From contig CASFQR010000014.1 of the NCBI GenBank assembly GCA_949297275.1, positions 1 to 48,539 of the forward strand: DNA of 48,539 bases. Reading direction: 5' to 3'. Under the pieces are notes generated by a model. That model saw only the letters and a list, made by a program, of their open reading frames with translations, ran no database searches and was not told the DNA's origin. A program made the translations under genes and the position numbers. The stretch comes from an uncultured bacterium (GTDB lineage Bacteria > Bacillota_I > Bacilli_A > RFN20 > CAG-826). How positions within the stretch are numbered: the stretch's first letter is position 1; the number at the start of each line of letters is the position of its first letter. This document shows positions 5,490 to 11,887 of the stretch, in pieces.

Positions 5490-5508
5490 AATAAAGGAGG
5501 TGATTTAT

Positions 5509-6438
5509 TTGGAATTAAAAAATATCTTATACTTTGTTGAAAAGTGGGGAATCAACGAAAGAAGAATCAGAGCTTTGTGTTCGGAAGGTAGAATTGAAGG
5601 TGCAATAAAAGTTGGCAAAACTTGGTTGATACCAGTAGAGGCAACAAAGCCTATTGATAAAAGATATAAAGTTAAAGAAAATATATTTTATAATTCAATC
5701 GATTTTAAACCAGTTGATAAAAAGAAAGATTTGATAGATTCATTTAGACCATTTTCAAATTTGATGAATAAGCAACTCAAAAATAAATTAGTTGTTGAGT
5801 GGACTTATAATTCAAATGCAATTGAAGGTAATAATTTAACTCTTTCTGAGACCAAAGCAGTTTTAGAAAATGGAATTACAATTAAAGGCAAGCCATTAAA
5901 GGATCACTTGGAAACCATAAATCACAAGGAAGCAATTGACTTTATTGAAGAACTTGTTCGAAAAGATTGTGTTTTAACTGAATATAACATTAAATCAATT
6001 CATCACTTAATATTAAAAGAAATTGATTCTGTTAACGCTGGTAAATATCGTCAAGAAAATGTTTTTATTAGTGGTGCAAAACACATACCTCCTAACTATA
6101 TTAATGTACCTTTTGAAATGCAAAAATTAATAGAAAATTATAAAAAGTGGAGTAATTTACACCCTATCGTAAGAGCATGTTATCTTCATGGTGAGTTTGT
6201 AAAAATACACCCTTTTGTAGATGGAAACGGAAGAACTGCAAGACTCTTACTTAATTTTGAGTTAATAAAAAATGGATATCCGCCTATTATAATTAAAAAC
6301 GAAGATAGAGTTGAATACTATGATGCTTTAGATAAAGCACATACAACTGATGACTATTCTGACTTTATAGAAATTATTAAAAATCTTGTTGAAGAATCAG
6401 AAAATGAATACCTATTTTTATTAAATGCTCGTATATAA
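5509..6438 (+). CDS. HTH-Fic protein (class II Fic, putative AMPylating enzyme)
   Basis: Residues ~1-50 form a MerR/excisionase-like DNA-binding domain (WGINERRIRALCSEGRIEG, then GKTWLIP). The Fic domain follows. It carries the inhibitory-helix motif SNAIEGN ([S/T]xxxE[G/N]) N-terminal to the Fic core, which defines class II. The complete active-site motif HPFVDGNGRTAR includes the catalytic His. Fic proteins of this kind typically transfer AMP to target proteins. The start is TTG at 5509, 8 nt after AAAGGAGG. A GTG at 5500 overlaps that ribosome binding site and cannot be the start. The 3' end overlaps an istB fragment in another frame, and repeat arrays lie upstream, so the gene sits within mobile-element debris. 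Confidence 0.88.
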   Translation: MELKNILYFVEKWGINERRIRALCSEGRIEGAIKVGKTWLIPVEATKPIDKRYKVKENIFYNSIDFKPVDKKKDLIDSFRPFSNLMNKQLKNKLVVEWTYNSNAIEGNNLTLSETKAVLENGITIKGKPLKDHLETINHKEAIDFIEELVRKDCVLTEYNIKSIHHLILKEIDSVNAGKYRQENVFISGAKHIPPNYINVPFEMQKLIENYKKWSNLHPIVRACYLHGEFVKIHPFVDGNGRTARLLLNFELIKNGYPPIIIKNEDRVEYYDALDKAHTTDDYSDFIEIIKNLVEESENEYLFLLNARI

Positions 6439-6691: not shown

Positions 6692-6769
6692 GTGAAAGAA
6701 TTAGCTGCACTCAAAGAAAAAAATTCACTCACAATTAGCAAAATTATGGAGAATCTGTTGCGTAAATAA
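6692..6769 (+). pseudogene. Fragment of a ribbon-helix-helix (antitoxin-like) protein
   Basis: The 25-residue frame VKELAALKEKNSLTISKIM... ends in TAA and resembles the helix-turn-helix half of CopG/RHH proteins. An in-frame stop lies just upstream and the N-terminal strand is absent. It is too short for certainty. Confidence 0.3.
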
Positions 6770-6787
6770 GGCAAGTTGTTATATATT
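6758..6787 (+). promoter_or_regulatory. Promoter of the preQ1-riboswitch operon
   Basis: TTGCGT, 18-nt spacer, TATATT. The predicted transcription start falls at the 5' end of the riboswitch. The -35 is weak. Confidence 0.45.
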
Positions 6788-6793
6788 GTTAAA

Positions 6794-6832
6794 GACAGTT
6801 CGCGACCATCCTGTCAATAAACAAAACTATGG
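6794..6832 (+). promoter_or_regulatory. preQ1-I-type riboswitch aptamer
   Basis: P1 is GACAG (6794-6798) with CTGTC (6811-6815). The loop holds CCAT (6806-6809), and an A-rich strand (AATAAACAAAACT) follows P1. ATGG (6829-6832) can pair with the loop to form the P2 pseudoknot. This is the preQ1-I architecture: a short hairpin, an A-rich tail and an H-type pseudoknot, in under 45 nt. The gene downstream encodes a VUT/YhhQ transporter, a known target family for queuosine precursors. CCATC (6806-6810) could alternatively pair with GATGG (6834-6838) at the foot of the terminator, which suggests ligand-promoted termination. Confidence 0.8.
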
Positions 6833-6836
6833 AGAT

Positions 6837-6856
6837 GGCGCTTTAAGCGCTTTTTT
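6837..6856 (+). terminator. Riboswitch expression-platform terminator
   Basis: GGCGC-tttaa-GCGC followed by six T, directly 3' of the preQ1 aptamer and 20 nt before the transporter start. It is positioned for attenuation rather than for ending an upstream gene. Confidence 0.8.
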
Positions 6857-6877
6857 CTTATGTTGATGGTTAAACAT

Positions 6878-7627
6878 ATGAAAAGAATTAAAGAAGAATT
6901 TATCGAATTTAAATTATTACTAAGATCGATACCAAGTCTAGTAACTGTTTTATTTGTCACATCGATTATCGCAATGAATTTATTAGCGAATAAAAGCATC
7001 GATTTAAATACCCCTTATTTAGCCCTTGATGGCGGCATCATCGTTTCTTGGATTACTTTTTTAACGATGGATATTATCACCAAACATTTTGGGCCAAAAG
7101 CCGCAAGCGAAGTGTCTTTGCTTGCTTTATTAGTGAGTTTATTTTTCTCTTTAATATTCTTTTTAGTTTCTTTAATCCCAGGTACTTGGAGTCAATCTTA
7201 TCTTGATGGCAGTCAAAATATCATCAATGAAGCAATCGATAATACTTTTCAAGGAACATGGTATGTGATTTTAGGGAGTGGGATTGCCTTTATTATTTCA
7301 GCACTTGTCAATAATTTTACAAATTATGGTTTGGGTTTATTGTTCAAAAAGAAGCCAAATAGTCTCCTAGCCTTTATCACTAGAACTTATCTTTCGACGA
7401 TGTTAGGGCAATTTGTCGATAATTTAGTCTTTGCCTTATTAGTGAGTTATTTCTTCTTTGGTTGGACGATTTTACAATGTGTGACTTGTGCCTTAACTGG
7501 CATGGCCGTTGAATTAATCTGCGAAATTATCTTTTCGTTTTTTGGTTATAAAATCACCCAAAAATGGCAAAAGGAAGAAGTTGGTAAAGAATATTTTGCT
7601 TATAAATTAGAAAGGAAGACACATTAA
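6878..7627 (+). CDS. VUT/YhhQ-family queuosine-precursor transporter
   Basis: About 250 aa with roughly six membrane helices. The conserved segment DIITKHFGPKAA near the N-terminal third and STMLGQFVDNLVF near the C-terminal third match the VUT (YhhQ) family, whose characterised member imports preQ0/preQ1. Import would supply precursor for queuosine in tRNA. Three in-frame ATGs exist (6860, 6866, 6878). I choose the last because the first lies against the terminator and no clear ribosome binding site exists for either of the first two. It is controlled by the preQ1-I-type riboswitch upstream and abuts the SDR gene. Confidence 0.85.
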   Translation: MKRIKEEFIEFKLLLRSIPSLVTVLFVTSIIAMNLLANKSIDLNTPYLALDGGIIVSWITFLTMDIITKHFGPKAASEVSLLALLVSLFFSLIFFLVSLIPGTWSQSYLDGSQNIINEAIDNTFQGTWYVILGSGIAFIISALVNNFTNYGLGLLFKKKPNSLLAFITRTYLSTMLGQFVDNLVFALLVSYFFFGWTILQCVTCALTGMAVELICEIIFSFFGYKITQKWQKEEVGKEYFAYKLERKTH

Positions 7628-8278
7628 ATGAAAGTTTTGATTACAGGTTCTACGAAGGGCATTGGACAAGCGATTGCTAATAAATTTCTAATTGAAGGAC
7701 ATATCGTCTATGGTTTTGATTTATTATCACCCTCGATTAATCACCCTAATTATCATCATTATCAAATTGATATTACAAAAGATAATTTAGTCGATTTAGA
7801 ACCTATTGATATTTTAATTAATAACGCTGGCACCCAGACAAATAGTGAATTAGATATCGTCACCAATTTAATTGCAGCGATTAAAATTACTGAAAAATAT
7901 GCCTTCCAAGACCAAATCAAAAGCGTCTTATTCATCGCATCTAATAGCGGTTCAACGGGCAGTGAGTTTCCCTATTACGCTGCAAGTAAGGGCGGCTTAA
8001 TTGCTTATATGAAAAATGTTGCAATGCGTTTAGGGAAATATCAAGCGACCGCAAATGCGCTTTCTCCCGGTGGCGTTTTAACTAGCTTAAATGACCATAT
8101 CATTAATAACCAAGAATTATATCAAGCTGTCTTAAATGAGACAATATTATATAAATGGGCAACTCCTGAAGAGATTGCTAAGTGGTCTTATTTTATGACA
8201 ACACAAAATCAATCGATGACTGGTCAAGATTTAATTATTGATAATGGCGAAGTCGCAAAATACAATTTTGTTTGGTAA
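7628..8278 (+). CDS. Short-chain dehydrogenase/reductase in the preQ1 operon
   Basis: 216 aa, a compact classical SDR. The cofactor motif is TGSTKGIG at residues 6-13, NNAG follows in ILINNAGTQ, and the catalytic Tyr and Lys are in YYAASKGG, with the active-site Ser in SNSGSTG. The C-terminal MTGQDLIIDNGE is typical of SDRs. The ATG starts at the base after the transporter TAA, with AAAGGAAG just upstream, so it is co-transcribed and presumably under the riboswitch. The substrate cannot be read from the sequence. Its placement suggests a role in queuosine precursor metabolism, but a passenger gene is possible. Confidence 0.8.
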   Translation: MKVLITGSTKGIGQAIANKFLIEGHIVYGFDLLSPSINHPNYHHYQIDITKDNLVDLEPIDILINNAGTQTNSELDIVTNLIAAIKITEKYAFQDQIKSVLFIASNSGSTGSEFPYYAASKGGLIAYMKNVAMRLGKYQATANALSPGGVLTSLNDHIINNQELYQAVLNETILYKWATPEEIAKWSYFMTTQNQSMTGQDLIIDNGEVAKYNFVW

Positions 8279-10542: not shown

Positions 10543-10571
10543 AAAAGCATAGGCTGCTACCTATGCTTTTT
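10543..10571 (-). terminator. Terminator at the end of the transposase gene
   Basis: AAAAGCATAGG and ACCTATGCTTTT (with a short loop) form a strong hairpin overlapping the transposase stop, with T runs on either strand. It can stop transcription leaving the IS and possibly transcription entering from the thioredoxin-like gene. Confidence 0.65.
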
Positions 10572-11837
10572 ATTATAGGAAGATACTAGTAATATTCTTT
10601 TTCTAAAGCGTTGAAAATTTTTATATTCATAAGAGATTTTGATCAATGTTTTTATATGATTATTTAGGTTTTCTGCGACTGAATTTGAATATTTAAATAT
10701 GCGACTTTTTCTATTTAATCCATTCGCGATTTCATAACGATATTCATGAAATGTTTTGGCAACCTTGTGGAGTAATTCTGATGATGTTAATTCTAGTTTT
10801 TTGACTATTCTTAGAACAAAATTTAATGCTTCTTCATAACTAAAATAAGAATTATATTCTAGCATCTCTTGCAATATAGAATGTGCATCCCATAAATTGA
10901 TATCCAACTTTAAACAATTTAATATTAATGTTCGATAGTCATAAGACACATTGGTCTTTTTATGAGTATATATTTTTTCTAAAGGAATTTTTCTATATCG
11001 GCATAAAAAATATTTCCAATTCTTTTTCATAAAATTATATTCAGGACCGTTTTTAATAGCTATCGAATTCATAGTTTTAGTTCTTAGTTGATTGACCGCG
11101 TTTGTCAATAATCTTACAACATGAAATAAATCGACAATGTGAAGAGCATTTGGTAAATATTGACGACAGATTGTATCATAAGCATCATACATGTCAGAAA
11201 TTAAAAACTTCACTTCTGATCGCTCTTTTATATTAATTTTAGAAAAATATTCTCTTAAAAACGGCATCTGTCTAGATATAATTACATCGACGATTTCTTT
11301 TCTTTCAAAATCCGACAATACACAGCAATATTTGATGCAATCATTCTTAGCAAATTTAAATTCATCAATGCACAATATTTTAGGTAATTTTAATCTAGGA
11401 ACAAATTTAACATTATCATCAAAAATTTGAATTATTCTTGCTCTAGATAAACCATATTTATTAGCAATTTGTTCAAAAGTCATAACACTATGAAAATCGT
11501 TAAGAATAAATTGTTTGGTTTGATGAGTTATGGAATCATAAGGATTTATTCCAGTTATTTCAGGAGTAAAAGTTTTCTTACATTTCTTACATTTTAATCT
11601 AACTTTTTTGATTCTTAAAATATCATCGACATGTTCATTTTGTTTTGCCTTAACTTCAATATAATTATAGTCCTTAATTACATAGTTTTCGCTTTGACAG
11701 TTAGGACAAAAATGTCCTCCTTTTTTCTGGCTGAATTCATATATAAAACCACCATCATATTTTATAGGTTCTATATATTCGTTTTCGATGTCGTCTGGAT
11801 TGATACCAAAACGAATACAAAGTGTGTTAAAATTCAT
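10557..11837 (-). CDS. ISL3-family transposase
   Basis: About 426 aa, the usual family length. An N-terminal zinc finger (FCPNCQSENY...LKCKKCKKTF) is followed by a helix-turn-helix (FEQIANKYGLSRARIIQIF). The catalytic domain has the first acidic residue in ILCIDEFKFAKN and the second in FLISDMYDAYD, with HIVDLFHVVRLL after it. The start is ATG at 11837, preceded by AAAGGAGG. A longer frame from 11861 would begin upstream of that ribosome binding site. The stop is TAG. The ribosome binding site lies in one arm of an inverted repeat (11838-11887). Confidence 0.92.
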   Translation of the reverse strand: MNFNTLCIRFGINPDDIENEYIEPIKYDGGFIYEFSQKKGGHFCPNCQSENYVIKDYNYIEVKAKQNEHVDDILRIKKVRLKCKKCKKTFTPEITGINPYDSITHQTKQFILNDFHSVMTFEQIANKYGLSRARIIQIFDDNVKFVPRLKLPKILCIDEFKFAKNDCIKYCCVLSDFERKEIVDVIISRQMPFLREYFSKINIKERSEVKFLISDMYDAYDTICRQYLPNALHIVDLFHVVRLLTNAVNQLRTKTMNSIAIKNGPEYNFMKKNWKYFLCRYRKIPLEKIYTHKKTNVSYDYRTLILNCLKLDINLWDAHSILQEMLEYNSYFSYEEALNFVLRIVKKLELTSSELLHKVAKTFHEYRYEIANGLNRKSRIFKYSNSVAENLNNHIKTLIKISYEYKNFQRFRKRILLVSSYNKKHR

Positions 11838-11887
11838 AAAAGACCTCCTTTTTATTGACACATTCTAATTATAAATGGAGGTCTTTT
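11838..11887 (-). promoter_or_regulatory. Inverted repeat sequestering the transposase ribosome binding site, with a -10 in its loop
   Basis: AAAAGACCTCC and GGAGGTCTTTT are perfect 11-bp arms at 11877-11887 and 11838-11848. The 3' arm contains the AGGAGG of the transposase. TATAAT (plus-strand 11868-11873) lies in the loop, so a transcript starting there would lack the 5' arm and be translatable. Readthrough RNA from outside would fold and hide the ribosome binding site. The -35 is poor. Confidence 0.6.

Follow-up and report, generated by a model that had tools for sequence, protein, structure and literature searches.

Queuosine (Q) is a tRNA micronutrient, and in the gut its precursors are shared and competed for. 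According to published surveys, parts of Q salvage are yet to be found. A close described system is that of C. difficile, where a preQ1-I riboswitch precedes queK, qrtT and queL, encoding a hydrolase, an importer and a queuine lyase, respectively (PMC11477304; PMC10723273), and where QueL converts queuine to preQ1 (PMC11477304). Among transporters, relatives of the VUT proteins such as E. coli YhhQ carry preQ0 (PMC5372724), and queuine transport is possible for QPTR proteins of other bacteria (PMC11130926). Type I preQ1-I riboswitches are recognised by UU atop the 5′ strand of P1, UC before the 3′ strand of P1, and a C in the A-rich tail (PMC11625349).

Here, a stretch of 48,539 nucleotides (the window) was analysed, derived from a genome of 1.04 Mb in 38 contigs that is 85% complete. 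The bacterium is a small gut-type organism in which a predicted preQ1-sensing RNA is in charge of an importer and a previously unstudied dehydrogenase. Dozens of relatives have these three elements together as well, which points to an unrecognised queuosine-scavenging enzyme.

Leader, transporter and dehydrogenase of the window

The locus comprises the following features:
6758..6787, forward strand: predicted promoter, TTGCGT ... TATATA/TATATT, read from the sequence; weak and absent from a consensus scan
6794..6834, forward strand: preQ1-I aptamer of type I layout; Rfam PreQ1 below the gathering score, homologous aptamers and a covarying P1
6831..6858, forward strand: intrinsic terminator, likely expression platform; core stem 6837-6851 plus a lower stem of GGAGA and the U-run
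6878..7627, forward strand: VUT/QPTR-family transporter (PF02592); Pfam Vut_1 E 4e-23
7628..8278, forward strand: short-chain dehydrogenase/reductase (SDR) of 216 aa; Pfam adh_short_C2 1e-21, orthologue alignment and AF2 model

Transcription is predicted to start near position 6793, and the aptamer consists of a 5-bp P1 (GACAG, 6794-6798; CUGUC, 6811-6815), a 12-nt loop (UUCGCGACCAUC, 6799-6810) and an A-rich tail (6816-6834) with terminal CUAUGGAG. All type I marks of PMC11625349 are found in it, as GACAG-UU...UC-CUGUC...AAAACUAUGG. Scanning the whole window with Rfam at the gathering threshold returned tRNAs only and no riboswitch, and comparative evidence was therefore used for the aptamer. 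A check against the Rfam PreQ1 model, as suggested in the first-pass annotation, gave a divided answer: RF00522 (PreQ1) was the best family at the leader (6790-6836, 24.3 bits, E 0.0076 with 401 bases searched), but remained below its gathering score of 39 bits, which is a statistical cut-off and not a structural feature. Most aptamers of clear relatives also fall below this score; as the model misses most members of the group, surveys that rely on RF00522 will count too few of these riboswitches. The leader adds a further putative preQ1 riboswitch to an established class. The first-pass annotation had placed a preQ1-I aptamer ahead of a transporter-SDR operon, a proposal upheld by the anatomy of the leader, the aptamers of relatives and P1 covariation. 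Its pairing of loop CCAT with ATGG holds in the window's genus but gives way to CTAGGG or CCAGGA in relatives beyond it, and this P2 was rejected as a general feature, while the competing CCAUC/GAUGG pairing put forward as the switch is only partially conserved. The terminator region (6826-6860) has a fold z of -3.5.

The VUT start at ATG 6878 agrees with the starts of relatives, and another in-frame ATG lies further upstream at 6860. The protein scores 82.9 bits against PF02592 (curated cut-off 27.2) and 39 bits against the TIGR00697 equivalog (cut-off 50.95). The ATG of the SDR (7628) directly follows the VUT stop codon (7627) with zero gap, and the SDR displays the features of a classical SDR with a Rossmann fold, including TGSTKGIG, NNAG and the tetrad N80/S105/Y117/K121; the zero gap and the intact cofactor and Tyr-Lys motifs had been read correctly in the first pass. 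Alignment of 55-65 orthologues shows little or no variation in the cofactor motif or at N80, S105/S107, Y117 and K121; E113, F114, N155, W177 and W216 mark the subfamily, and no conserved Cys was found. In 65/65 orthologues, strand 2 ends in Asp31; SDRs with an Asp in this place usually prefer NAD(H), and an NAD-type cofactor is thus implied.

The AF2 model of the SDR has a pLDDT of 95.8, and Foldseek searches with it returned ordinary SDRs, with the NAD-dependent 2,3-dihydro-2,3-dihydroxybenzoate dehydrogenase near the top. The likeness of the modelled fold to a diol dehydrogenase is suggestive of a cyclic diol substrate, but not decisive, as FabG and many SDRs match equally well. Against the named SDR equivalogs of NCBIfam, the best match was FabG-like (92.9 bits, cut-off 270), and YmfI gave 67.8 bits (cut-off 238); identification as FabG or as the EF-P 5-aminopentanone reductase YmfI was rejected, since both scores lie far under their cut-offs. 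The protein is likewise no QueF, having an SDR fold and not the T-fold QueF domain, and no conserved Cys. Nor does it have the radical-enzyme fold of QueL, which it would resemble only in the work it does.

Recurrence of the gene pair and its aptamers

Orthologues of the SDR, with 46-77% identity over the full 216 residues, are encoded in 35/146 genomes of the window's family, in named MAG contigs and in the class families f6, f11, f19, f20, f21 and f25. VUT lies directly upstream of the SDR in f6, f19, f20, f21 and f25, and this adjacency, often with a 4-nt overlap, is the rule in the loci read. Exceptions are G220, G038 (where a gene is inserted, L031/L071), L092 (at a contig end) and the Butyrivibrio loci. 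Within the family, VUT is present in 35/35 SDR genomes and no genome has the SDR without it (Fisher p 1e-28, phylogeny ignored). The readable loci contain no SDR copy away from Q-salvage genes, and a search of viral contigs gave no match. The pair recurs so widely that the absence of the SDR in relatives, named in the first pass as a reason to abandon the proposal, did not materialise; one genome even carries two cassettes (G051:C9 and G051:C58). Pairwise identities of SDR and VUT are correlated (rho 0.60, 54 loci). In the VUT tree, the window protein groups with VUTs of f21 and of an Acholeplasmatales MAG and not with most of its own family, which suggests that the cassette and its leader (style A, see below) were transferred between families as one unit. 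A transposase-like ORF near the cassette (window 10557-11861, reverse strand) has a zinc-finger N-terminus, looks ISL3-like by eye and is consistent with a mobile neighbourhood. A gene for a Fic/DOC-family protein is located just upstream of the cassette (5500-6438).

Other enzymes accompany VUT at some loci. An alpha/beta hydrolase (BD-FAE/Abhydrolase_3) is encoded between VUT and SDR in G038 (L031:2160-3053, reverse strand). In addition, two genomes of the family, G030 and G092, encode behind a preQ1-I aptamer a VUT that continues in frame into an amidase-signature domain (PF01425; L237:1622-3829, forward strand; L239:1136-3312, reverse strand). In these fusions the aptamer is of style C and the amidase stands in the SDR's place, and their VUTs branch among SDR-partner VUTs, with a long branch and weak placement. 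The fusions behind the same aptamer suggest that further partner enzymes exist.

Every VUT-SDR locus with enough upstream DNA, in several families, has a preQ1-I-like aptamer before VUT. A loose aptamer pattern matched about four sites in the 1.27 Mb of control genome G220, and this rarity argues that an aptamer upstream of each cassette is not due to chance. P1 pairing was found in 154/155 cells of 31 distinct aptamers, compared with a shuffled mean of 102, as counted on anchored strands; a MAFFT alignment of all aptamers was set aside because it is not structure-aware. P1 covaries, with three pair types at pair 1, more at pair 3, and compensatory types at several pairs. The aptamers come in three styles: style A, to which the window belongs, has GACAG...CUGUC and in some cases clear terminators (relatives L003, L033, L034, L088 and L099), style B has a P1 end of GAUG or GUG and a CCUUG/CAAGG pseudoknot, and style C has GCGAAG...CUUCGC and CCAAGGAG. 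By the sequence rules of PMC11625349, style A and most of style C are classed as type I and style B as type III-like. Type III-like aptamers (UU, AC, CCUUG/CAAGG) were observed in Bacillota/Mycoplasmatota, in leaders L035-L042, L090, L091, L095 and L098. The reports of preQ1-I type III known to us are almost all from Pseudomonadota.

Queuosine genes and alternative genomic contexts

The genome of the window encodes tgt, queA and queH together in one operon, apart from the cassette, which answers the first-pass question of which queuosine genes are present. Among the 146 family genomes, QueA was found in 139, QueH in 132, QueT in 99 and QueF in none, and 35/35 SDR genomes keep QueA as well as QueH. 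The absence of QueF alongside widespread QueA and QueH indicates that the family depends on precursor salvage. QueT, an ECF carrier of preQ1, is encoded in 2/35 SDR genomes versus 97/111 others (p 2.6e-19, phylogeny ignored), and the swap can be followed inside the window's genus, where G018 has aptamer-QueT-tgt-queA-queH and G000 and G045 have aptamer-VUT-SDR. That VUT-SDR replaces QueT implies the same supply job, yet one for which an extra enzyme is needed.

In the Butyrivibrio-labelled genus, the SDR is found in 18/79 genomes and in all 18 is convergent with an operon of ECF-S and nucleoside hydrolase, with a variable other flank. A preQ1-I aptamer (GACAGUUCAUUUGUACCUUCCUGUC...AAAACCAGG) precedes the hydrolase in 18/18. 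By analogy with the C. difficile layout, the Butyrivibrio SDR appears to occupy the place of queL. A TATACT box lies about 6 nt before the SDR ATG in many of these genomes (L200-L211), where the SDR mRNA seems to be leaderless with a promoter of its own and hence not under the riboswitch of the hydrolase operon, a point against the reading favoured below.

G220 (97% complete) differs in having the SDR ahead of a canonical VUT (TIGR00697, 143.6 bits) and no visible aptamer at the locus. Its TGT pocket is altered (LTDCGG, GGVANDGE) while queH is kept (L123 and L138:3175-3771), and QueA was not found in the SDR genomes G220 and Butyrivibrio MAG G554, both with unusual layouts. The altered pocket, with QueH kept but QueA missing, may mean that the TGT of G220 now inserts a different base directly; should this base be queuine, its destruction would make no sense there. 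The lack of QueA in G220 and G554 thus counts against the reading favoured below.

Together, these contexts bear out the earlier suggestion that the SDR acts on a salvage intermediate, and the enzyme very probably works in Q salvage. The SDR is a well-defined candidate for a missing salvage part, as it tracks a preQ1-regulated importer, swaps with QueT within genera and adjoins a QueK-like operon in Butyrivibrio. A literature search for an SDR or amidase with preQ1 or queuosine returned nothing relevant, though an earlier mention may exist; in the available literature, neither an SDR subfamily with three Q-salvage contexts nor a VUT-amidase fusion was found.

Candidate reactions and comparison with known systems

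The complete reading is about as likely as not: a preQ1-regulated salvage cassette whose VUT takes up a Q precursor that is not preQ1 itself, with the base queuine as the likeliest choice, and whose SDR turns this precursor into preQ1. Of its parts, conversion of the imported precursor to preQ1 seems somewhat probable, whereas queuine as that precursor is plausible at a little under even. Queuine is favoured because it carries a cyclopentenediol, because QPTR proteins can carry it, and because the Butyrivibrio layout copies a queuine pathway. In this cassette, preQ1 bound to the leader would most likely shut the operon when plentiful, a sign suggested by regulatory logic, whereas the terminator itself is observed. 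The SDR with NAD+ could then oxidise one of the side-chain hydroxyls on the cyclopentenediol of imported queuine, and the resulting aminoketone may, by our own chemical reasoning, rearrange and hydrolyse to release preQ1. From this, TGT, QueA and QueH, whose genes lie at another place in the genome, would rebuild Q on tRNA. Also plausible at somewhat under even is a bolder reading, in which the SDR would be a second enzyme making preQ1 from queuine, an 'oxidative queuine lyase' that depends on NAD+, is unrelated to radical QueL and arose independently of it. It would have spread among small-genome Bacilli in a cassette of riboswitch, transporter and enzyme, and in Butyrivibrio next to a QueK-like operon. 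This makes it testable which precursor is imported and whether a non-radical route leads from queuine to preQ1.

A less likely but serious alternative is that the SDR acts on another modified 7-deazaguanine common in the gut, such as an oxidised, acylated or otherwise conjugated derivative of preQ1 or queuine, which is freed or repaired before TGT. The amidase fused to VUT instead of the SDR in G092 and G030, behind the same style C aptamer, and the hydrolase inserted in G038 suggest that the partner enzyme tracks the form of the imported compound, and G220 without QueA is compatible with this; however, such a substrate is hypothetical, and the Butyrivibrio layout copies the C. difficile operon leading from Q via queuine to preQ1.

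It is rather improbable that VUT imports preQ0 and that the SDR is a non-homologous preQ0 reductase in place of the missing QueF, since we know of no SDR that reduces a nitrile to an amine, and the SDR lacks the conserved Cys that a QueF-like thioimide would require and carries an NAD-type Asp31 instead of an NADPH motif. Such a reductase would account for the tight VUT-SDR pairing, QueF is absent from all 146 family genomes although queA and queH are kept, and VUT relatives carry preQ0 (PMC5372724). However, family members with QueT are without QueF too and subsist on preQ1, and the Butyrivibrio context is one of nucleoside salvage, not preQ0.

Very improbable is a passenger role, with an ordinary FabG-like reductase trapped in the operon. 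While the protein folds like FabG and other SDRs and its top NCBIfam hits are FabG-like, though far below cut-offs, a passenger role conflicts with the 35/35 linkage in the family, the 18/18 occurrence at a different Q-salvage operon in Butyrivibrio with a varying other flank, the unusually conserved signature residues and the lack of copies away from Q-salvage genes in readable loci. Finally, the first-pass idea that the SDR replaces epoxyqueuosine reductase, prompted by a reductase-type fold in a Q operon, is refuted by queH in 35/35 SDR genomes, including the window's own, where it shares an operon with queA, and epoxide deoxygenation is not an SDR reaction known to us.

Compared with type I preQ1-I riboswitches (RF00522; Carnobacterium antarcticum type), the window leader shares UU/UC around P1 and the C in the A-rich tail and differs in its score below the Rfam cut-off and in a leader terminator suggestive of transcriptional control. 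The VUT resembles QPTR/YhhQ (COG1738, PF02592) in passing the Pfam cut-off and lying behind a preQ1-I aptamer, but falls below TIGR00697 and represents a divergent subfamily whose members pair with the SDR or carry an amidase fusion. With 2,3-dihydro-2,3-dihydroxybenzoate dehydrogenase and 4-hydroxyisoleucine dehydrogenase, the SDR has in common the fold, the catalytic tetrad and the NAD-type Asp, although it is only ~25% identical to these NAD-dependent enzymes, none of which is tied to Q metabolism. Like queK-qrtT-queL of C. difficile (CD1682-1684), the system combines a preQ1-I riboswitch, a Q-precursor importer and a putative precursor-processing enzyme, which in Butyrivibrio stands in the position of queL beside a hydrolase and ECF-S. 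QueL, however, has been described as a radical enzyme with no relation to SDRs, and the window instead has a VUT carrier in an operon without a hydrolase.
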